A stretch of DNA of 11,779 nt from Acidobacteriota bacterium (GTDB lineage Bacteria; Acidobacteriota; Terriglobia; UBA7540): the NCBI GenBank assembly GCA_021789565.1, contig JAJYJL010000116.1, positions 1 through 11,779 of the forward strand, read 5' to 3'. Both the position numbers and the translations under genes were made by a program. How positions within the stretch are numbered: position 1 is the first letter of the stretch; each line of letters begins with the position of its first letter. Below the pieces are notes generated by a model. The model worked only from the letters and a program-made list of their open reading frames with translations. It was not told where the DNA came from and did no database searches. Positions 1 through 10,960 of this stretch are shown one piece after another.

Positions 1-73
1 TGAGGTCTCCGCCAGGGATGCCCGCATATCTCTCGTTGGTCACGAAGTGTTGGCACCCGTCCGCCGTGGCCAC
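1..73 (-). CDS. Partial coding frame, continuing the 74-664 gene or a separate GTG-started gene
   Basis: On the minus strand the frame stays open from the TAG at 76-74 to the left edge of the window and reads VATADGCQHFVTNERYAG and onward. This looks like real protein rather than spacer. It is in the same frame as the DUF7007-like gene, and as I remember that family its C-terminus has a PG-V-x-x-VAT-like strand followed by a phenylalanine/valine strand and a tyrosine, which this piece would supply. A separate gene is also possible: GTG at 73-71 directly follows the stop, and GGGAG lies about 8 bases upstream of it. The sequence to the left is needed to decide. Confidence 0.5.
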   Translation of the reverse strand, partial: MATADGCQHFVTNERYAGIPGGDL

Positions 74-664
74 CTAGATGACTCCCGGCCGCTCGGTGTG
101 CCAGTCGCCCCACGCGCACACGATCAGGTTGTGGGACTTGCTTTTCCTGAGACGTTCCTCGGCCTTGTGGTTGAGGTAGCGCCGATACATATCGGCGTCA
201 ACTTCGAGCCCCCGCTCCAGCAGATAATCGGCGTCGAAGACCGTAATGTCGGGTACCAGTGACGACCGGATTCGGGAGTCGGTCATTCGCAGGTACCGCG
301 CTGCCTTAGCCAGCGCCTCGGGTGCCTCTCGGCGAATAGACTCGCTCCAGCCTGCCGCGCCGTCCACGATTAACTGCCAGTCCTTCGCGCACCGCCCTTT
401 GTGCGCTCGCAGCAGGTCGGGATGCTCGAAGAAGAAGATGTTGATGCGGCAATCTTCCTCGAAGCAGGCCCAGTCCCCGAACTGCTCGCTTTTGGATAAC
501 GCCTGCGCGGTGAGTTTGCCCTCCGGTGTGTCCTGTGCCTTGCGGTGAACCATCACGCCGCCGTGTGATGGCGTGGATACTAGGAAGACCCCCTTGGCAA
601 GTTCTTCGGTGTTGTCCACGTTTCCCCAGGGCGAACGTGTCGGTCTCAGAATGATTGTGTCCAT
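74..664 (-). CDS. DUF7007-like phage/plasmid protein, possibly cut short by an in-frame TAG
   Basis: A 196-residue protein starting at ATG 664, preceded by the strong Shine-Dalgarno site AGGAGG that abuts leader copy A. Residues about 26-38 read VFLVSTPSHGGVM, and a GDWACFEEDC stretch follows at about 62-71. This pairing of TPSHGG with W-x-x-(F/Y)-EEDC is what I remember from the DUF7007 family of phage and plasmid proteins, whose function is unknown. The C-terminal part has basic and acidic helices and then a hydrophobic strand ending GDWHTERPGVI before the TAG. The reading frame continues after the TAG (see 1-73), so the true protein may be longer. It is the last complete gene of the leftward operon, 71 bases after the previous gene. 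The family match is from memory; the frame and start are secure. Confidence 0.75.
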   Translation of the reverse strand: MDTIILRPTRSPWGNVDNTEELAKGVFLVSTPSHGGVMVHRKAQDTPEGKLTAQALSKSEQFGDWACFEEDCRINIFFFEHPDLLRAHKGRCAKDWQLIVDGAAGWSESIRREAPEALAKAARYLRMTDSRIRSSLVPDITVFDADYLLERGLEVDADMYRRYLNHKAEERLRKSKSHNLIVCAWGDWHTERPGVI

Positions 665-735
665 CGTTTACTGCCTCCTCGTGCCGGTTGCACGCTGCAG
701 CCCCTGCACCGCAGAGGCTGCCGCTTGCCACCGTC
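665..735 (-). promoter_or_regulatory. Structured RNA leader, copy A (two hairpins and Shine-Dalgarno)
   Basis: The intergenic gap upstream of the 74-664 gene. Read as minus-strand RNA it forms an 11-bp helix from 721-711 with 707-697 (loop of 3, one G-U pair), 2 bases of spacing, a 5-bp helix 694-690 with 684-680 (loop AACCG), and then AGGAGG immediately. The same arrangement and much of the same sequence recur at 1213-1279. On the plus strand the G-U pair would be a C-A mismatch, which points to the minus-strand RNA as the working form. It may control translation, because the second hairpin touches the ribosome site. Confidence 0.6.
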
Positions 736-1212
736 CTAGAAGTTGCGCTCCAGCCCGATCTGCTTCGCGTACTCGTGGCCCTTGGCCGTGAAGTAAATCC
801 ACGTGTTGCCCTCGTCGGTGTCCGTGGTAATGAGACCGGCGACCTTGAGTTGTGTCAGGTTGCCGCGCTCCTCCTTGGTGCCGCCGCAATTCCCGCCGAC
901 CAGTGGATTCCCGCTCCAGTTTGGCGCATCCCGGTAGTACGCCTCGAAGACTCTGCGAGACTCCTCGGTGATCGTGACCGGCTCGCCGTAGCCGCGCTCC
1001 AGCCCGATAATGCGATTATTCATTGACCAGTTCCACGCCGCTGGCGTGGCGATCTGAAAGACCCGTCCCGGCTGCTCGTTGGGGTATGGCGATGTGATGG
1101 CCTTCACCTTGTAGTAGTTCTTGGTGACGCCCACGACCTCGCCGACAAACTGCAGGATGCGCCGTGAGTTTGTGAAGCTGGCTCTTACTTGCTGTCCGAT
1201 CTCGTAATCCAT
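736..1212 (-). CDS. Phage-type protein with SH3-like N-terminus and winged-helix-like C-terminus
   Basis: A 158-residue protein starting at ATG 1212, preceded by GAGGAGG. In-frame codons extend far upstream but cross the leader and the neighbouring gene in the wrong frame, so this start is preferred. Residues about 5-40 (GQQVRASF, then VGEVVGVTKNYYKVKAI) look like a small beta-barrel of the SH3/KOW kind. The C-terminal third (GGTKEERGNLTQLKVAGLI, then DEGNTWIYFTAKGHEYA) has the layout of a winged helix-turn-helix, with a helix, a recognition helix and a beta wing with a conserved-looking W-x-x-FT-x-x-G. I remember similar short proteins among phage hypotheticals. No enzyme motif is visible. 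It sits between two genes of the leftward operon and carries copy B of the RNA leader. A nucleic-acid-binding role is inference. Confidence 0.85.
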   Translation of the reverse strand: MDYEIGQQVRASFTNSRRILQFVGEVVGVTKNYYKVKAITSPYPNEQPGRVFQIATPAAWNWSMNNRIIGLERGYGEPVTITEESRRVFEAYYRDAPNWSGNPLVGGNCGGTKEERGNLTQLKVAGLITTDTDEGNTWIYFTAKGHEYAKQIGLERNF

Positions 1213-1279
1213 CCGTTCCTCCTCGTGCCGGTAGCACGGTCCAGCCCCCCGTACTGCGTGAGAGGCTGGCCCTTGCCGC
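1213..1279 (-). promoter_or_regulatory. Structured RNA leader, copy B (two hairpins and Shine-Dalgarno)
   Basis: The gap upstream of the 736-1212 gene. Minus-strand RNA can form a 9-bp helix from 1269-1261 with 1249-1241 (loop of 11, two G-U pairs), 2 bases, a 5-bp helix 1238-1234 with 1228-1224 (loop TACCG), and then AGGAGG. It shares ACCGGCACGAGGAGG and AGCCTCT with copy A. The outermost pair of the first helix is C-G here and G-C in copy A, a compensatory change. Confidence 0.6.
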
Positions 1280-2299
1280 CTAGCCTCTGATGGCCGCTCC
1301 CAGATGCGCCTCGGCATGGTCAACCCGCCGCCGTGCCGCTCGGATTTCCCAGTCTGCCGCCCGGCGTCCGCAGAGACCGCAAGGCGTATTGAGTTCCTTG
1401 AGCAACCGCTTTTCCGACGCGACCAGTCCCTGCAGCCGCTCAACGCGCTCATCCTTGGCCGTGGCGCCCTTGAGACCGCCTGCCTTAATCCACGTGTCCA
1501 GCGCATCCTGCACGCTGTTCCAGAAGTCGGTATCATCCGGTGAGTGGCCGCCCTCATCGAACGCCCCGCCGAAGCTGTTCGCGTCAACGTACTGGTGAAG
1601 GTCCGCAAAGCCCGTGACGGCCTGCGCGTCGATCTCGCCGGTATCGCAAGCTTCGAGAACTTCCCGCTTCGCCCTGGCGATGGTCTCCTGTAACTCGGTG
1701 GTGGATTCAGTCGGAATGTGCCGAACCCGGTCAATGAACGCTCCGGCGTCCCAGTTCGGCACGGTCTCTCGAACCTTGAGGATGACTGACGCCGCCGCGT
1801 GGGTGATAGCAATATGTCCCTTCTTCGCGATCTCCGCCTCTGGCCGCGTCTTCGCCTTCCAGAATGTATCGTTGAGGATGTCCGCGACCTCTTCCAAGGT
1901 GAACGTCACCGCCTGAGCCTGCAACGGTGCAGCCGCTGCAGTTTCCGGCACTACCACGCCGCCCATAGGCTCCTCCTCCCGTATATCTCCAATCTCCCCC
2001 CTGAGTTCTTCCACCGTCGCCTTCCCAAACTGCTCCCACTTCTCGCCCTCTTGCCTAACTTCAATCACCAGTTGCACCTGCCCCGCGTCGTCCTTGTAGC
2101 TGTATCCCGCGTTCAGCCTATACTCTCGACCCGGAAAACCCCGCAACCCGAAGACCTCGGGGAAACTCCCCAAATCCCTCTCAATCCTTTCACTTGCGGA
2201 CAAATTATCTCCACTTCCGTCCGACCTAGCCGCGCCGCTTTCTGAAGCGATTAGACGTGAGCGAGTTTCATTACCTGTGTTTTCTGTTGGTTGCTTCAT
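1280..2299 (-). CDS. Hypothetical phage-like protein, 339 aa, with a Cys motif near the C-terminus
   Basis: Starts at ATG 2299, overlapping the TGA of the upstream gene in an ATGA junction, with AAAGGAGG about 9 bases before it, so it is probably translationally coupled. Residues 1-40 are polar and likely disordered. Residues about 45-105 (FPEVFGLRGFPGREYRL, YSYKDDAGQVQLVIEV, WEQFGKATVEELRGEI) form an alternating strand pattern that I associate with small phage hypotheticals. A linker rich in Ala and Glu follows; its VPETAAAAP codons contain GGAAACTGCAG, also found in the rightward block. The remainder is mainly helical, with an acidic loop (DEGGHSPDDTDFW). The C-terminus has a single CGLCG motif between charged helices. 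I see no catalytic motif and do not recognise the whole protein. It is the longest gene of the leftward operon. Confidence 0.85.
   Translation of the reverse strand: MKQPTENTGNETRSRLIASESGAARSDGSGDNLSASERIERDLGSFPEVFGLRGFPGREYRLNAGYSYKDDAGQVQLVIEVRQEGEKWEQFGKATVEELRGEIGDIREEEPMGGVVVPETAAAAPLQAQAVTFTLEEVADILNDTFWKAKTRPEAEIAKKGHIAITHAAASVILKVRETVPNWDAGAFIDRVRHIPTESTTELQETIARAKREVLEACDTGEIDAQAVTGFADLHQYVDANSFGGAFDEGGHSPDDTDFWNSVQDALDTWIKAGGLKGATAKDERVERLQGLVASEKRLLKELNTPCGLCGRRAADWEIRAARRRVDHAEAHLGAAIRG
1936..1946 (-). repeat. GGAAACTGCAG motif inside a leftward gene
   Basis: The 11-base core of the rightward-block repeat occurs here on the minus strand, followed by CGGCTGCA. It is the only copy I found outside 3170-4755 with the full core, so it may be chance. 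Confidence 0.35.
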
Positions 2300-2640
2300 T
2301 GTGACACCGTCCTCCTTTGGATGTTTTCGTTAGCGATCTGTGCGAGTTGCCCCGCGTATTTCCGTAGCCGCCTCCTAACTACATCGGCCTGTCCCGGCGT
2401 GAGCGTCTTATAAGGAAAGGCTTTCTCCGCCACGCTGGACAGGAACTCCGCATCGAAAGCGTTGAAACCGCGCCGGTTATGCTCCGTCGTGGTTTGGCTT
2501 GCCTGCTCATCCCAAGTCTGTTGCTCGTACAATGCCCTCAGTAGCCGGTAGAGTACCATCCGGTCGCACTCCGCTAACAGCTTGAGAATACGTGCCTTGT
2601 CCCATGTTTCCGTCATCGGATTGTTCCCGCTGGTGCTCAC
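2296..2640 (-). CDS. Phage hypothetical of the RGFxAFDAEFLSS type
   Basis: A 114-residue protein with GTG at 2640; an alternative is ATG at 2616, which would give 106 residues. The core reads HNRRGFNAFDAEFLSS followed by LTPGQADVVRRRLRKYAGQL. I remember this pattern (N-GRGF-AFDAEFLSS, then a helix ending in KYAGQLA-IAN) from a widespread family of short phage and prophage proteins of unknown function. It is all helical, with no enzyme motif. It is the first gene of the leftward operon. The promoter at 2648-2676 would start transcription almost at the GTG, so either the GTG is leaderless or the ATG is used with a leader of about 25 bases that has only a weak AGCGGGA site. The family match is good; the start is uncertain. 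Confidence 0.85.
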   Translation of the reverse strand: MSTSGNNPMTETWDKARILKLLAECDRMVLYRLLRALYEQQTWDEQASQTTTEHNRRGFNAFDAEFLSSVAEKAFPYKTLTPGQADVVRRRLRKYAGQLAQIANENIQRRTVSQ

Positions 2641-2647
2641 AACTACT

Positions 2648-2676
2648 GTTCTAAACCCGTTCGTTCGCTATGTCAA
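2648..2676 (-). promoter_or_regulatory. Sigma-70-type promoter for the leftward operon
   Basis: On the minus strand a perfect -35 TTGACA (2676-2671) is followed after 17 bases by TAGAAC (2653-2648). The expected start is near 2641, next to the GTG at 2640. Confidence 0.7.
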
Positions 2677-2951
2677 TAGTTATTTCGGCTTTTCCACAGA
2701 TTTCTTTAACGACCGCTGCCTCTGGGACAAACTGCTATCACTTCGCCCTTGAATCCGCCCATGCTGGACTCCCTCCGCCCTGCCAGCAATCGAACCACGG
2801 CCAAATGTGCGCCGCGTTTTCCCGCCTGCAGAGGCGACCAGCCCCGAACCGATCAGGACTGGCCAACCGCCGACCGGATGACAACCACCGCCGCGAACCC
2901 TCCCAACCGAACCGGCCGCCAGGACGACCGGCGACCGCCCCGCGCCGGCCA

Positions 2952-2983
2952 GACCCAACCGCTTGGCCCCGACCCAACCGCTT
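2952..2983 (+). repeat. Direct repeat GACCCAACCGCTT, two copies
   Basis: Two exact 13-base copies start 19 bases apart, at 2952 and 2971, inside the divergent intergenic region. Shorter CCAACCG copies lie upstream at 2863 and 2903. They could be protein-binding sites. Confidence 0.55.
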
Positions 2984-3094
2984 CGCAGGCCCGGGCGAGA
3001 AAAAACGAGGCGCGGGCGAAAAAGGGGACCCCCGGCCGCCTCGCGCGCCGATTTTATATTGGCTAGGAGTCAGCGACCTGTTTCAAAAAAAGTA

Positions 3095-3122
3095 TTGCAA
3101 AAACGAGGAGTGACCCTATAAT
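3095..3122 (+). promoter_or_regulatory. Promoter of the first rightward block, probably giving a leaderless mRNA
   Basis: TTGCAA at 3095-3100, 16 bases, then a perfect TATAAT at 3117-3122. GTGACCC lies just upstream of the -10, and TTGTGACACC follows directly at 3122-3131. The expected start is 3129-3131, touching the ATG at 3132, which has no Shine-Dalgarno site. Confidence 0.7.
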
Positions 3123-3131
3123 TGTGACACC

Positions 3132-3542
3132 ATGCGAAGCGGAAACGAGTTCGACCCAAGCGCGGTGTCAGCGAAGGAAACTGCAGCGAGTTCGGGACAA
3201 CCTCCTGTGGCGCAGGATTACTGCAGCCCCTGCAGCAAACGCGGGAGGAGCGGCGTGGTGGCGACCCATTGGGTAAACCGGGAGCCGTTCTGCCGGTCGT
3301 GTTTTAGGGGCGGGGAAGGTGGGGGTAGCGGCGAAAACCCGAACCGTAAGAGGCGCGGGGAGGCAGGGGCGCCTCGGAAGCATCCGTTGTGGAAGGCGCG
3401 GCATTGCCGGGCGCTGTACCGGGCGGGGTGGAAGTACCGGGAGATAGCGCAAAAGCTTGATGTGCCGGAGAGTTGGGTAGCGACGACGATACGGCAGTCG
3501 GTGATAGCGGGGATATTGTTGAGGCGGGACCGGACGTTCTGA
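3132..3542 (+). CDS. Zinc-ribbon plus helix-turn-helix putative DNA-binding protein
   Basis: A 136-residue protein. Residues 31-34 (CSPC) and 54-57 (CRSC) form a four-cysteine zinc ribbon with a beta hairpin between (VVATHWVNREPF). A Gly-rich and Arg-rich linker (58-83) follows. Residues about 88-123 (CRALYRAGWKYREIAQKLDV, then ESWVATTIRQSV) look like a helix-turn-helix of the kind with a G-W/Y-x-Y-R-E-I-A turn. It is probably a transcription regulator or a transcription-machinery adaptor. ATG 3132 lies only 9 bases after the -10 box and has no ribosome site, so leaderless initiation is likely. The stop overlaps the next start (TGATG). GGAAACTGCAG occurs at 3176 and a related CTGCAG pair at 3221-3235 within the codons. 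The domain calls are from pattern; the target is unknown. Confidence 0.8.
   Translation: MRSGNEFDPSAVSAKETAASSGQPPVAQDYCSPCSKRGRSGVVATHWVNREPFCRSCFRGGEGGGSGENPNRKRRGEAGAPRKHPLWKARHCRALYRAGWKYREIAQKLDVPESWVATTIRQSVIAGILLRRDRTF
3176..3186 (+). repeat. GGAAACTGCAG repeat, first rightward copy
   Basis: The core of the repeat 44 bases after a gene start, read in the KETAA frame. The upstream arm of the hairpin (TGCAG) is missing here. A looser relative, CAGGATTACTGCAG, lies at 3213-3226. Confidence 0.5.
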
Positions 3543-3787
3543 TGGGTGAGCAGCGAAAATGCGAGGGGTGCCAGGGGGTCGGCGAGTGTTTTATTGTGGA
3601 TGAGCGGCGGCCTGGGGCGAAGGGGAGCATGGCGCAATCGTTTTGGGCGCAGTACCCGTTGTGCGCGCGGTGTGTGGAAAAGGCGACGCGGATGGGTGGG
3701 GTGGCGCGGGAAGATCTGTATAAAAGCCGGCCGCGGTACGAAGTGCTGGCGCGAACGCTACAGATGGTGCGAGGAGGCGGGTTATGA
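3542..3787 (+). CDS. Small zinc-ribbon protein, 81 aa
   Basis: ATG 3542 shares its A with the preceding TGA, which supports this start over a longer in-frame option at 3473 that would overlap the zinc/HTH gene by 70 bases. Cysteines at 7 and 10 (CEGC) and 41 and 44 (CARC) make a zinc ribbon, with Cys16 between them. The intervening loop (about residues 20-39) carries WAQYPL. The C-terminal helix includes YKSRPRYEVLARTLQM. It has the same CxxC-n-CxxC layout as the gene before it but no helix-turn-helix, so it may be a diverged half-copy or a partner protein. The stop overlaps the next gene in ATGA. I do not recognise a named family. Confidence 0.75.
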   Translation: MGEQRKCEGCQGVGECFIVDERRPGAKGSMAQSFWAQYPLCARCVEKATRMGGVAREDLYKSRPRYEVLARTLQMVRGGGL

Positions 3788-3990
3788 GCGATTCGGTAGA
3801 AGGTGCAGGAAACTGCAGCGACTTGATGCAGGAAACTGCAGTAACCGAGCCAGAGATGGTTGCGCTTGAGTTCAAGCCGTGGGTGAAGGTAGACAGCCGG
3901 TTGGTCGAGGCGGTGACGGAGCTTGAGAGGCTTGGGGCGTCGGTGATCGTGGCGAGGATGAGCGAGCCGGGCGACCCGATCGACGGCTGA
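3784..3990 (+). CDS. Short ORF, probably the N-terminal part of the sigma-4-like gene
   Basis: A 68-residue frame starting in an ATGA overlap with the upstream gene. The residues after about 28 (FKPWVKVDSRLVEAVTELER, then LGASVIVARM) look like a real alpha/beta domain. The frame ends in TGA at 3988-3990, but it stays open directly afterwards in the same register (AWILVRWEPRPWDWEAATEL), joining the sigma-4-like protein without a gap. If the TGA were TGG the junction would read DGWAWILVRW, which looks natural. TGA is a normal stop elsewhere in this window, so this is a nonsense mutation, a readthrough site, an assembly error or two coupled genes. Two copies of TGCAGGAAACTGCAG sit in codons 7-20, read in different frames. 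Confidence 0.65.
   Translation: MSDSVEGAGNCSDLMQETAVTEPEMVALEFKPWVKVDSRLVEAVTELERLGASVIVARMSEPGDPIDG
3804..3841 (+). repeat. Two tandem TGCAGGAAACTGCAG hairpin repeats
   Basis: Copies at 3804-3818 and 3827-3841 lie 23 bases apart. Each is an inverted repeat, TGCAG-GAAA-CTGCA, that as RNA gives a 5-bp stem with a GNRA-type GAAA loop. They are read in two different codon frames (GNCS and QETA), so the conservation is at the nucleotide level. Confidence 0.65.
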
Positions 3991-4716
3991 GCGTGGATCC
4001 TGGTTCGGTGGGAGCCGCGTCCGTGGGACTGGGAAGCGGCGACGGAGCTTGCCTTCGGGCGCGTCCGGCAGACGGCACTTGGGCATCGCACGCGGCTTTA
4101 CCTGCAGGTTGTGGAAATTCCGGGGAACTGCTTCGGGGTTTACGTCGGGTGTCCGCTGGAGCAACTGCCTGACCTGGCGGCGATTATCGCGGACGTTCCG
4201 CGCCAGCCTGAGTACCCGATGGAGCGCGAGATTTTCAAACTCAAGACCAAACTCAGCGCAAGCCGAAGAGAACTTCGGGAGGTCCGCAAAAAGCTGCGCG
4301 ACCTGGCGGCTTTCTATCGCACGGACCTGGGGGCGCTCCAAAGCCTGCGGAACAAGGCCGAGGAGGCCGAACAGCACGCCCAACTCTTCCACGTAAGGCT
4401 TGACCGCGGCGCCGCAGGCCGGTTGCTGGCAAGGGTTTTCGGCGAGAGAGAGCCCATGCCGGTTCGGGCTGACTGGGAGAGGCACGTTACCCGCGCGCTT
4501 CTGGGGCTCTCGCCGCGCGAACGCCGGGTGGTTCACATCTACTACGGGCTCGAGACCGGAGAGCCCCTAACCTATCGCGCTGCCGGGGCCGCGATCGGGG
4601 TCACGGACGAAAGGGCCCGGCAGATTATCGCAAAGGCCATGCGCCGGCTTCGGCACCCCTCGCGGTCCTCTCACCTGCGCAAAGCCTTTGAAGGGTTGCA
4701 CGTGGAACTGCAGTAA
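3991..4716 (+). CDS. Sigma-70 region-4-like protein, lacking an upstream start after the in-frame TGA
   Basis: Coding character begins straight after the TGA, but the first usable start is GTG 4111 (201 residues), which lacks a ribosome site. Counting from GTG 4111, residues about 37-100 are a charged coiled coil (MEREIFKLKTKLSASRRELR and onward). Residues 131-139 read LGLSPRERR, then YYGLETGEPLTYRAAG, GVTDERARQI and AKAMRRLRHPSRSSHLR at about 154-190. This is the classic -35-recognition helix-turn-helix of primary sigma factors (region 4), including the RLRHPSRS tail. No region 2 (-10 recognition) is visible, so it cannot be a full sigma factor; an RNA-polymerase-directed adaptor or regulator is likelier. 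It stands with two zinc-ribbon proteins in a probable transcription module. The region-4 call is firm; the start and the status of the stop are unsettled. Confidence 0.7.
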   Translation, partial: AWILVRWEPRPWDWEAATELAFGRVRQTALGHRTRLYLQVVEIPGNCFGVYVGCPLEQLPDLAAIIADVPRQPEYPMEREIFKLKTKLSASRRELREVRKKLRDLAAFYRTDLGALQSLRNKAEEAEQHAQLFHVRLDRGAAGRLLARVFGEREPMPVRADWERHVTRALLGLSPRERRVVHIYYGLETGEPLTYRAAGAAIGVTDERARQIIAKAMRRLRHPSRSSHLRKAFEGLHVELQ

Positions 4717-4753
4717 CCGGCAGTAAATCCTATGCAGGAAACTGCAGCAACTC
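4703..4753 (+). repeat. GGAACTGCAGTAACC and TGCAGGAAACTGCAG between two genes
   Basis: A degenerate copy TGGAACTGCAGTAACCGG (4703-4720) spans the stop of the sigma-4-like gene and matches 3831-3848 closely. A full copy TGCAGGAAACTGCAG (4733-4747) lies 24 bases upstream of the next start codon, where the hairpin could influence expression. Confidence 0.6.
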
Positions 4754-4770
4754 TGAATAGGGGGGAGCAC

Positions 4771-5652
4771 ATGACGATTGCGCTGGATCTGCAGAAGATG
4801 ATAAACGCCCTGCCGCCGATTGCGTGGCGGGGCTTCGTATGGCCGCACGCCGGGGTGATTGAGGTCCCGGGCGGGGCTTTCGAAATTTCTTCGACCGTCC
4901 GGATAGATTCCCCGTTCGTCATCATCAGGGGGCAAGGCGCCGTCGCAACGCAACTGCACTTCACCGGCAAGGGTCCTGCGATCGAGTGGACGTCCCGAGG
5001 GCTCAATAGCGGCATCGGGCAGACGCTCGCCGGGGGCCTGCGCGACCTTAGCATCGTGGGATATAAGGCGCAGCCGGGGTCTTTCGGTCTCGTCACGCGC
5101 GACCTGATCGGTTTCAGCTCCACGCGCGTTTCGATCTGCGGCTTCAACCAGCCGGGATCCGCAGGTTGGTGGGACGATACCGTCCTGTGGTTCAACGAAC
5201 GCTACGACGTCGAAATGGAGATGGGCGACAATCAGGACTGCTGGCTCGTCACGAACAACCATGCGCCCGGCAGCTTCAACGGCTACACCTACGGGTACGG
5301 CTGTCTGAAACTCTGGCTCAACTGCATCAAGGGCGGAAATGCCATCCGGTCGGTCGGCAAGAGCAAGGACTATCCCGCGCAGGTGTGGAACGAGTCCGCG
5401 CACATCGTCGTCAACGGCGCGGACGGAAAGTGCTTCAACCTGAACAATTATTCTCACTGGCACTTGCAGGGCATGGTCCACTGCGAACAGAACCCGAAGG
5501 GGCTCGTCACCGACTGGACAAGCTACCTGGTGGTGAACGGCTACTCCACGGGTCTATACGCAAACCAGTTTCACAAGGTCGGCAGTAACCTCCTGCAGAG
5601 AGCCAAGCAGGCGTACCACAAAGTCCACAAAATCGGAGCGGAGCTCTACTGA
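4771..5652 (+). CDS. Pectate-lyase-like beta-helix protein
   Basis: A 293-residue protein. ATG 4771 is preceded by GGGGGGAG, so it is preferred to an in-frame ATG at 4732 that falls inside the repeat. Residues about 20-60 (FVWPHAGVIEVPGGAFEISS, then FVIIRGQGAVATQLHF) match the opening turn of a right-handed parallel beta helix as in pectate-lyase-superfamily proteins and phage tail-spike domains. The rest keeps a short-strand rhythm (LRDLSIVGY, SSTRVSICGF, SAHIVVNGADGKCFNL, HWHLQGMVHCEQNPKGLVT, YLVVNGYSTGLYANQF) consistent with further rungs. There is no signal peptide and no catalytic motif I can assign. It might be a depolymerase, a receptor-binding protein or a structural protein, but no tail genes are nearby. 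The fold is well supported, the function is not. Confidence 0.8.
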   Translation: MTIALDLQKMINALPPIAWRGFVWPHAGVIEVPGGAFEISSTVRIDSPFVIIRGQGAVATQLHFTGKGPAIEWTSRGLNSGIGQTLAGGLRDLSIVGYKAQPGSFGLVTRDLIGFSSTRVSICGFNQPGSAGWWDDTVLWFNERYDVEMEMGDNQDCWLVTNNHAPGSFNGYTYGYGCLKLWLNCIKGGNAIRSVGKSKDYPAQVWNESAHIVVNGADGKCFNLNNYSHWHLQGMVHCEQNPKGLVTDWTSYLVVNGYSTGLYANQFHKVGSNLLQRAKQAYHKVHKIGAELY

Positions 5653-5666
5653 ATTTCTAAAGACTT

Positions 5667-5694
5667 TTGGGGCTGCAGCGTGCTATAACCCCAA
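5667..5694 (+). promoter_or_regulatory. Possible promoter within an inverted repeat, upstream of the secreted protein
   Basis: TTGGGG (5667-5672) and CCCCAA (5689-5694) flank CTGCAGCGTGCTATAA, which holds a -10-like TATAAC at 5684-5689. No good -35 is visible. AAGTGC is repeated in tandem just downstream at 5693-5704. It may be a regulated promoter or a small hairpin. Confidence 0.3.
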
Positions 5695-9138: not shown

Positions 9139-9333
9139 ATGAAGTTCATGGGAATGGAAGTTGTCGTGAATGACGGGTTGCCGAGCAACTCGATAATGAT
9201 TATTCCCTACTGCGCGGTGCGCTCGCCGCTTCCTGGCGAGAAGCCGGACTGGGTCTTTCCGGCAGTGGGCGGCGTAAAAATCGAAACGGACAAGATCACA
9301 CTCATCAAGGGGATTTCTACAGATGCCGATTAG
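9139..9333 (+). CDS. Hypothetical small protein, 64 aa
   Basis: ATG 9139 has GAGGGA a few bases upstream; an in-frame ATG at 9106 lies inside the previous gene and has no ribosome site. The sequence MKFMGMEVVVNDGLPSNSIM and IIPYCAVRSPLPGEKPDWVF is mostly beta. I recognise no family. It overlaps the methyltransferase start by 11 bases, so the two are probably co-translated. Confidence 0.55.
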   Translation: MKFMGMEVVVNDGLPSNSIMIIPYCAVRSPLPGEKPDWVFPAVGGVKIETDKITLIKGISTDAD

Positions 9334-10960
9334 GGGCAACGCCTTCCAGCTTCCGTTCAAAGATGAATCTATTCAGTGTATCGTGACGAGCCCCCCTTAC
9401 TGGGCCCTCCGCCGCTACGCGGGGGAACAGTCGATGGTCTGGCCGACGCCGGCGGCTCGCGGCATCGTGCGCTGCGCGGCTGGCGATCATGACTGGCAAT
9501 CGGCAGGAAAGCTGCGCCATCATCCGGACCGGTGCATCCAGGGAAAGGACTTGAACGGCAGTGGGAAATTCTCGGACGAAATACCGCGTGGGGAGCAAGG
9601 CTCAAAGGCCAGCCGCGGTGAAGCCCTCGACCTGGGCGATAGCTGCAGCCTCTGCGGTAGCTGGCGCGGTGCCTACGGGCAAGAGCCCACGCTCGATCTT
9701 TATGTTGAGCACACTGTCCTCTGGATGGAAGAGTGCCGGCGCGTGCTGCGCAGCGACGGCTGCCTCATTGTCAACATCGGCGACAAGTACGCGAACGACG
9801 GGAAGTGGGGCGGCGAGACCGGTGGAAAGCAGGCTTACCTTGACGACGACAACCGAAAGCGAAACGGGCGCCAGAAGATTAAAACTGGGCTCAAGCCGAA
9901 AGATATGTGCCTGATTCCCTTTCGTGTGGCCTTGGCGGCTCAGCAGAGTGGGTGGTGGGTACGCTCCATTATCCCTCCGGACTACGAGAATTGCAATGCG
10001 CAGCCTGCGCGTGTCGGGATCTGGGAGAAACCAAACCCGATGCCGTCAAGCGCCTGGGACCGTCCTACCAACTCCTTTGAGTTCGTCTTCGTGTTCACCA
10101 AGTCCGAACGCTACTTCTGGGACTCTGACGCCATTGCGGAGCCCTGCAGCGAGAGCACGCACCAGAGAATCAGCCAGAGAAGTCTCTCCAGCCAGGCGGG
10201 ATCCGACCGCGCCTACGGGGGCCAGCGCCACAACGGTCCCATGAAGGCAGTTGTGCGCGGCATGGGAGCCAAGGTCGGCCGGCGCGAGGATGGCGTAAAG
10301 GCGAACGGAGATTTTATGTCGGCCGTCGTCGGGCAGCCCCTCACGCGCAATGCCCGAAACGTCTGGACGATTACCACACAGCCGCAGTCCTGGGCGGAGT
10401 GCGATGCTTGCCACCTGGTCTTTCCAAACAAGAAGTACCTGCCGAAGCGCGTCGTGAAGGTTAAGAACTCTGGGAGGATCGAGTACGGCTGCCCACGCTG
10501 CGGGGCGTGGGGAAAATGGGTTGAGCACTTCGCCACCTTTCCGGAGGAGATTCCCCGCCGCGCCATCCTTGCAGCTACGAGCCAGCGGGGAGCCTGCCGC
10601 TTCTGCGGTTCGCCTTGGGAGCGCGTAAGGACAGCACGGTTCTATGGCGACGGCAACCCTGACGGCGGCAGCCATCACGCGCCCGGCCAGGTGCACCGGA
10701 TGAGCAACGATCGAAAGGGCACGGAGTTCCTCTCAAGCTACCGACCTCCGGACACCGTGGGATGGACGCCCACCTGTAAGTGCCGAGGGCAGCATGGAAA
10801 AACCTCTCCGTGTTTGGTGCTGGATCCTTTCAGCGGCTCAGGAACAACCGAGAAGGTCGCGATCGAGCTTGGAAGAATCGGCGTTGGGGTTGACGTCGCC
10901 TACCATGAGATACAGAAGTTCCGCCTGCAGGACCTGCAGCCAGAGCTTTCTTTCTTTTAG
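9323..10960 (+). CDS. Beta-class site-specific DNA methyltransferase (orphan), with zinc-ribbon insert
   Basis: A 545-residue protein transferring methyl groups from S-adenosylmethionine to DNA. The catalytic motif TSPPYW stands at 22-27, and the cofactor motif DPFSGSGTT lies near the C-terminus at 501-509, which is the beta-class order (IV before I). After motif IV come CSLCGSWRGAYGQEPT (Cys108, 111), CLIVNIGDKYANDG, FRVALAAQQSGWWVRSIIPP, NPMPSSAWDRPTNSFEFVFV (motif VIII-like), a variable middle region likely to read the target, and Cys pairs at 360/363, 390/393 and 425/428. SPPYW is typical of N4-cytosine enzymes but also occurs in N6-adenine ones, so the modified base is not certain. ATG 9323 has AAGGGG 10 bases upstream and overlaps the previous gene. 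No restriction gene accompanies it, so protection of the element's own DNA or an epigenetic role is likely. Confidence 0.92.
   Translation: MPIRGNAFQLPFKDESIQCIVTSPPYWALRRYAGEQSMVWPTPAARGIVRCAAGDHDWQSAGKLRHHPDRCIQGKDLNGSGKFSDEIPRGEQGSKASRGEALDLGDSCSLCGSWRGAYGQEPTLDLYVEHTVLWMEECRRVLRSDGCLIVNIGDKYANDGKWGGETGGKQAYLDDDNRKRNGRQKIKTGLKPKDMCLIPFRVALAAQQSGWWVRSIIPPDYENCNAQPARVGIWEKPNPMPSSAWDRPTNSFEFVFVFTKSERYFWDSDAIAEPCSESTHQRISQRSLSSQAGSDRAYGGQRHNGPMKAVVRGMGAKVGRREDGVKANGDFMSAVVGQPLTRNARNVWTITTQPQSWAECDACHLVFPNKKYLPKRVVKVKNSGRIEYGCPRCGAWGKWVEHFATFPEEIPRRAILAATSQRGACRFCGSPWERVRTARFYGDGNPDGGSHHAPGQVHRMSNDRKGTEFLSSYRPPDTVGWTPTCKCRGQHGKTSPCLVLDPFSGSGTTEKVAIELGRIGVGVDVAYHEIQKFRLQDLQPELSFF

Follow-up and report, generated by a model that had tools for sequence, protein, structure and literature searches.

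In phage T7, RNase III processing sites lie between the early genes in the form of imperfect hairpins of about two helical turns. Cluster K mycobacteriophages carry SAS, a short repeat at the translation starts of some genes of different families, the core of which is a 13-bp sequence (GGGATAGGAGCCC) a few nucleotides from the start codon (PMC3203893). In ESAS, an inverted repeat stands just upstream of the start-associated repeat. Its function is given as unknown, departures from the inverted repeats generally do not support RNA pairing, and DNA-protein sites were judged likelier (PMC3203893). Clustered hammerheads flank single prophage genes and may divide long transcripts into mRNAs one gene long (PMC3088659). 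Ribozyme-neighbour genes have also served as a route to discovery, leading to pistol, twister-sister and hatchet (PMC4604425).

Here, we describe a ~70-nt element that fills both gaps of a minus-strand gene run (2640-74) within a window of 11,779 bases, the whole stretch of DNA that was analysed. Among described systems, SAS/ESAS (PMC3203893; PMC12699233) comes closest, sharing with the element a start-associated repeat before genes of different families and an inverted repeat just upstream. The SAS core (up to 2 mismatches) does not occur in the window leaders, and by reading, CACGAGGAGG stands before the start in both. Unlike in ESAS, the changes within the inverted repeats are compensatory. 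The element also resembles clustered prophage hammerheads (PMC3088659) and twister-P5 (RF02684) in being a compact structured RNA in a stop-to-start gap, repeated in neighbouring gaps of a phage-like element. However, it has no hammerhead core, twister match or Rfam ribozyme match. Compared by description, it is also like the T7 sites in its predicted imperfect hairpin of about two turns, repeated between the cistrons of a polycistronic mRNA. No description of the element was found in the titles and abstract openings of open-licence papers on repeated structured phage leaders and phage ribozymes.

The window has phage-type gene content, with a DUF7007 protein (PF22653), PHROG matches and a DNA methyltransferase. 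Within the minus-strand run, ORF4 and ORF3 overlap, and gaps of 67 and 71 nt separate the genes at the other junctions (Table 1). As the first-pass annotation of this DNA had proposed, the genes behind the two gaps are of different families: ORF1 is a DUF7007 protein and ORF2 belongs to another family, the two being unrelated (hhalign probability 0.2%). Therefore, no recent whole-gene duplication lies behind the shared leader. In our reading of its predicted model (mean pLDDT 77), ORF2 appears to have a beta-rich N-terminal part and a winged-helix-like C-terminal part. It also has weak MarR matches (E 0.02-0.04) and is a candidate nucleic-acid binder.

Table 1. Genes of the minus-strand run, parts of the two copies of the repeated element, and type II hammerhead matches in related loci (L numbers denote loci; other positions are those of the window).
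Feature	Position	Strand	Context
ORF4	2640-2296	-	First gene of the minus-strand run 2640-74
ORF3, 339 aa, no assigned family	1280..2299	-	5' of copy 1; stop TAG 1282-1280
ORF2, 158 aa	736..1212	-	3' of copy 1; stop TAG 738-736; ATG 1212
ORF1, DUF7007 protein (PF22653)	74..664	-	3' of copy 2; ATG 664
Copy 1, whole	1213..1282	-	ORF3 stop TAG to just before ORF2 ATG (1212)
Copy 1, extended hairpin 5' arm GGCGGCAAGGGCCAGCCTCTC	1260..1280	-	
Copy 1, extended hairpin 3' arm GGGGGGCTGGACCGTGCTACC	1230..1250	-	
Copy 1, alternative hairpin CGTGC-TACCG-GCACG, abuts Shine-Dalgarno	1224..1238	-	
Copy 1, Shine-Dalgarno AGGAGG	1218..1223	-	5 nt before ATG 1212
Copy 2, whole	665..738	-	ORF2 stop TAG to just before ORF1 ATG (664)
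Copy 2, extended hairpin 5' arm	711..733	-	
Copy 2, extended hairpin 3' arm	685..707	-	
Copy 2, alternative hairpin CGTGC-AACCG-GCACG, abuts Shine-Dalgarno	680..694	-	
Copy 2, Shine-Dalgarno AGGAGG	674..679	-	9 nt before ATG 664
Type II hammerhead matches	L030 2907-2986, 3249-3315, 4996-5074		Near ORF2-family genes; third below Rfam cut-off
Type II hammerhead matches	L042 2923-2984; L047 4083-4147		Near ORF2-family genes; both below Rfam cut-off

Other features of the window are recorded here as separate observations. Behind the TAG of ORF1 (74-76, minus strand), the frame (VATADG...) still resembles DUF7007 relatives, for which the readings include a nonsense change, a sequencing error or read-through. 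TAG is also the stop of ORF2, ORF3 and the methyltransferase, which is of the N6/N4 type and encoded at 9323-10960. The hexamer CTGCAG occurs 25 times in the whole window, against ~3.8 expected from base composition. In the plus-strand gene run, a TGCAGGAAACTGCAGC-like 20-mer occurs four times, at 3172, 3804, 3827 and 4733 (plus strand).

Both copies of the element begin at the upstream gene's stop codon, TAG, and end in AGGAGG followed by ATG. The 21-mer CGTGCNACCGGCACGAGGAGG has exactly two sites in the window when up to 3 mismatches are allowed (694-674 and 1238-1218, minus strand), with 0.01 expected by shuffling. Aligned with one another, the leaders reach a local score of 58, above all 2000 shuffles (mean 15.3, sd 2.7, maximum 29). 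The longest identical stretch includes AGGAGG, and the similarity covers ~55 nt upstream of it, with identity reaching 5' to GGYGGCAAG (GGCAAG) and the CAGCCTCT arm. GGCAAG and WACCGGCACG are nearly invariant between the copies. This contradicts any view of the similarity as confined to the ribosome site.

That proposal was of a reused cis-acting RNA, built from a hairpin with an AGCC...GGCT core (hairpin 1), a 2-base gap, a second hairpin CGTGC-WACCG-GCACG (hairpin 2) and AGGAGG. All of these parts are present in both gaps. The annotation further suggested that the element controls translation, possibly as the binding site of an element-encoded protein or a metabolite. A pair-by-pair comparison shows that the G-C to C-G compensatory change in the outer pair of the first helix is real, and the U-G pairs do exist only in the minus-strand RNA, as had been claimed. 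A reused cis-acting RNA before unrelated genes is supported because the similarity is far above shuffles and the changes are compensatory and wobble-aware. The two-hairpin anatomy, however, competes with one other fold.

In the other fold, the 5' half of hairpin 2 is taken up by an upstream GGCAAG arm, and the result is a single interrupted hairpin that follows the upstream stop codon immediately. This extended hairpin is broken by purine mismatches and is 20 bp long in copy 2 and 16-18 bp in copy 1, depending on the ends taken. Folding each leader on its own gives it as the structure of lowest energy (-36.5 kcal/mol for copy 2 and -28.8 for copy 1), and RNAalifold on both copies gives the same structure. 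Against dinucleotide shuffles, the stability of copy 2 is exceptional (z -4.4, 0/200) and that of copy 1 modest (z -1.8, 10/200). All shared pairs (16/16) are kept between the copies, two of them changed on both sides (alignment columns 16-48 and 18-46) and one more going from U-A to U-G. The loops have diverged while the stems have compensated. The second compensatory pair sits outside hairpin 1 and was absent from the first-pass account, the two-hairpin model of which accounts for one such pair, not two. With the same 2 + 3 substitutions placed randomly in paired positions, all pairs were kept with two double changes in 0.0008 of 200,000 trials. The column-shuffle control reaches the observed covariation in 118/500, and is weak because two sequences give little power. 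Hairpin 2 is invariant and therefore shows no covariation. Both the covariation and the folding energies of the leaders on their own speak for the longer interrupted hairpin rather than the two-hairpin fold.

Hairpin 2 and the extended hairpin are mutually exclusive pairings of CGUGC, and both are conserved. An isolated leader made to form hairpin 2 is less stable by 6.6 kcal/mol (copy 2) or 3.8 kcal/mol (copy 1). The leaders were also folded in context, including the stop codon and 45 nt of the downstream gene, with either nothing or the 5' end masked. Unmasked, hairpin 2 is predicted at 0.47 in copy 1 (vs 0.29 for the lower stem of the extended hairpin) and at 0.22 in copy 2 (vs 0.75). In copy 2 with its flanks, the minimum-energy fold contains hairpin 2, although the ensemble favours the extended stem. 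When at least the first 9 nt behind the stop are masked, neither copy keeps the lower stem, and hairpin 2 stands at 0.67-0.87 for copy 1 and at 0.54-0.98 for copy 2. Predicted accessibility of the Shine-Dalgarno falls on masking in copy 1 (0.83 to 0.46-0.76) and is little changed or raised in copy 2. The Shine-Dalgarno is 0.46-0.83 unpaired in every state tried, and therefore the fold change alone predicts no on/off switch. In copy 2, the start codon stays largely base-paired in all of these states (0.15-0.29 unpaired).

No third copy was found in the window, either by eye in the first-pass annotation or with a covariance model of both copies. Plus-strand model matches at the leaders themselves are the mirror of the palindrome. 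A 15-nt exact match to copy 2 (GGGGCTGCAGCGTGC) was seen just behind a stop codon at 5669-5683 (plus strand), longer than in 200/200 shuffles (maximum 14). Its region folds no better than shuffles. Chance is the preferred explanation, because the fold is not significant and because the CTGCAG inside the match is over-represented, which dinucleotide shuffles miss.

Further copies were also sought in sequence collections. GTGCNACCGGCACGAGGAGG had 0 matches in IMG/VR viral contigs and 8 in GTDB genome contigs, 0/8 with the surrounding leader by eye. Three other searches of IMG/VR gave matches that appear by eye to be chance: the pattern CAGCC..GGCTG..ACCGG, which fits copy 1 only (6 matches), GTGCNACCGGCACNNGGAG (14 matches) and an extended-hairpin pattern (3 matches). 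Covariance model R1 gave 30 rows on those 31 pattern-matched loci, down to E 0.00027, values that are circular because most of the loci were chosen by the same letters. With blastn, window 1-2400 matched nothing in phages (INPHARED) or plasmids (PLSDB), and copy 2 alone matched 12 INPHARED records with a best E of 2. Scans for close relatives with ORF1 alone and with ORF2 alone returned no locus. Protein relatives in viral contigs provided 57 loci (52 for ORF2 and 5 for ORF1), in which R1 found no convincing copy (best E 0.0037 in L051, next 0.19 in L049). The L051 match lies behind an ORF2 homologue, but is a 16-bp terminator-like hairpin between that homologue and an opposite-strand ORF, with no start placed as in the window. 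The first-pass annotation had staked its proposal on further homologues with covariation; none were found in IMG/VR, GTDB, INPHARED or PLSDB as searched, and there the result goes against it. Because neither a third copy nor a homologue was found in the collections searched, all structural inference rests on two copies.

The relatives of ORF2 are informative about what else can occupy the same slot. Within each locus, 50-nt stretches upstream of starts were compared, and at least one similar pair was present in 17/52 loci of ORF2 relatives, 3/23 other viral loci, 0/5 loci of DUF7007 relatives and 0/8 genome loci. When the stretches were displaced by +90 or -120 nt, no set had a similar pair. 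These counts are lower bounds, because the scan misses the window's own pair (0/1), the ORF2 frame being open beyond its start. Near-identical contigs (L020-L022, L024, L025 and L027; L052/L054; L078/L082) were counted separately and the controls are unmatched for host or GC; start-associated repeats are therefore frequent, with no specificity to ORF2 implied. By eye, the repeated leaders of L049 look like promoter-plus-leader duplications. In L053, which has both ORF2 and DUF7007 homologues, AGGAGAACCAC occurs at 110-120, 368-378 and 923-933, before both starts and that of a third gene. Fold z-scores of 41 upstream regions of ORF2 homologues (mean -1.0, 6 below -2) revealed no general strong structure.

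Rfam searches at the gathering score, covering 50 of the 52 ORF2-relative loci, identified self-cleaving ribozymes in 3/50, namely hammerhead II in L030 and twister-P5 in L052/L054, which are nearly identical and form one group. Most ORF2 relatives have no ribozyme match. Lower thresholds, applied to 14 loci, add L042 (35.6 bits, cut-off 37), L047 (28.7 bits) and more copies in L030 and L054, and a hammerhead core pattern gave two further hammerhead-like cores in L047. By eye, core-pattern matches in L024, L025, L060 and two controls are no hammerheads. A ribozyme match stands directly upstream of an ORF2 homologue in three groups (L030, L042 and L052/L054). L054 has eight twister-P5 matches (E<=1) in 3.3 kb (1590-4892), gap after gap. 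They score 28-42 bits, with 3 reaching the cut-off of 37.6; relative to the preceding stop, 7/8 start at -5 to +4 nt, and 8/8 end 24-28 nt before a start. Among the 15 of 23 control viral loci scanned with Rfam (140 kb), there were 0 ribozymes, and tRNA and tmRNA in one locus. In L062 and L063, a CyVA-1 RNA (RF02965) was noted at 2466-2543 (minus strand), ~460 nt from DUF7007 homologues on the opposite strand. The ribozymes in the slot of some ORF2 relatives thus indicate mRNA processing at least as much as ligand control.

The window element was also compared with known classes of RNA. No Rfam family, riboswitch or other cis-regulatory, reached its gathering score in the leaders, where the weak matches are far below cut-offs, and no Rfam ribozyme, including twister, pistol, twister-sister and hatchet, matched window 640-1310 at E<=10. 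Neither leader with its flanks contains the CTGANGA or CGAAA of a hammerhead core (CUGANGA and GAAA with three stems). A topology scan of both leaders for an HDV-like nested double pseudoknot (P1/P2/P3), using a simplified definition and no positive control, found none. RNase III sites cut in vivo are marked by about two turns of double-stranded RNA, and the predicted leader hairpins are 20 and 18 bp long; recognition of the element by RNase III may be suggested from hairpin length only.

The best reading, to which we give a probability of about 0.4, is an intergenic mRNA-processing or insulating hairpin that is reused in both gaps of the run and refolds beside the Shine-Dalgarno. It is read as a message-separating hairpin because it has the geometry of the ribozymes in the relatives without their known cores. 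The reading builds on the existence of two copies, on the base pairs that they share and the compensatory changes among these, on an alternative pairing worked out on paper, and on the ribozymes in the slot of some relatives. In the intact minus-strand polycistronic RNA, the two arms would pair first into the extended hairpin. Once a cut in the gap had taken away the 5' arm, or a ribosome finishing translation at the upstream stop had melted it, CGUGC would be free to pair with GGCACG and form the short hairpin abutting the Shine-Dalgarno. The likely job would be to separate and insulate cistrons, with the upstream message gaining a protected 3' end and the next message a 5' hairpin and a ready ribosome site. 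We infer that the RNA is cut, either by itself or by a double-strand nuclease such as RNase III, and that expression is affected. A predicted fragment cut in the hairpin-1 loop places hairpin 2 at 0.99 in copy 2 and only at 0.22 in copy 1, the latter value counting against the simplest cleavage-and-refold version.

The main rival, possible if on the whole doubtful, is a translation switch without cleavage that couples neighbouring genes, the chooser being a terminating ribosome, a phage protein (for which ORF2 is the candidate) or a ligand. The two exclusive, conserved pairings of CGUGC would suit such a switch, as would an element that touches both stop and Shine-Dalgarno, a predicted fold that flips when the nucleotides under a terminating ribosome are masked, and the winged-helix-like C-terminal half of the ORF2 model with its weak MarR matches. 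However, the Shine-Dalgarno is at least 0.46 open at every masking tried and no clear on/off is predicted, Rfam gives no match above cut-off, to a riboswitch or otherwise, and hairpin 2 lacks covariation. A feature of the DNA with no RNA function (an operator palindrome, a recombination seam or the remnant of a duplicated leader-plus-gene module) is unlikely. Hairpin 2 is a perfect 5-bp dyad in DNA too, the C-G to G-C flips also preserve DNA symmetry, similar start-associated leaders recur in the 17 ORF2-relative loci, and the report on ESAS leans towards DNA-protein sites (PMC3203893). Against this, the U-G pair that does not vary and the pair that goes from U-A to U-G are both kept only in minus-strand RNA, the minus strand of 1-3300 has no sigma-70-like site, and stems were compensated while loops diverged.

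An undescribed class of self-cleaving ribozyme, of which the leaders would be the first known copies, doing what twister and hammerhead do in relatives, is very unlikely as a whole. On this view, the extended hairpin would be the fold before cleavage or the catalytic one, and the 21-nt CGTGCWACCGGCACGAGGAGG would remain at the 5' end after cleavage as a hairpin with the ribosome site. The slot and gene family are common to the twister and hammerhead matches, the element is compact with compensatory stem changes and nearly invariant GGCAAG and WACCGGCACG, and ribozyme-neighbour genes have led to new classes before (PMC4604425). Yet no Rfam ribozyme matches, hammerhead core and HDV-like topology (as simply defined) are absent, and the fold, known from two copies only, resembles a simple hairpin with interruptions, in which no pseudoknot is proven. 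That a ribosome-binding site and chance hairpins produce the resemblance is hardly credible: although the longest identical stretch includes AGGAGG, the likeness of ~55 nt upstream of it, the score above 2000/2000 shuffles and the expectation of 0.01 for CGTGCNACCGGCACGAGGAGG all speak against it.

Start-associated phage repeats have so far been described without a mechanism, and the pair in this window adds RNA-level evidence, in the form of compensatory changes, for one of them. Together with the self-cleaving ribozymes that fill the same slot in some relatives, it suggests that phage leaders of this sort may be interchangeable modules that separate messages. The analysis also flags the ORF2 family as a ribozyme-associated gene and, with it, a place to look for new catalytic RNAs.
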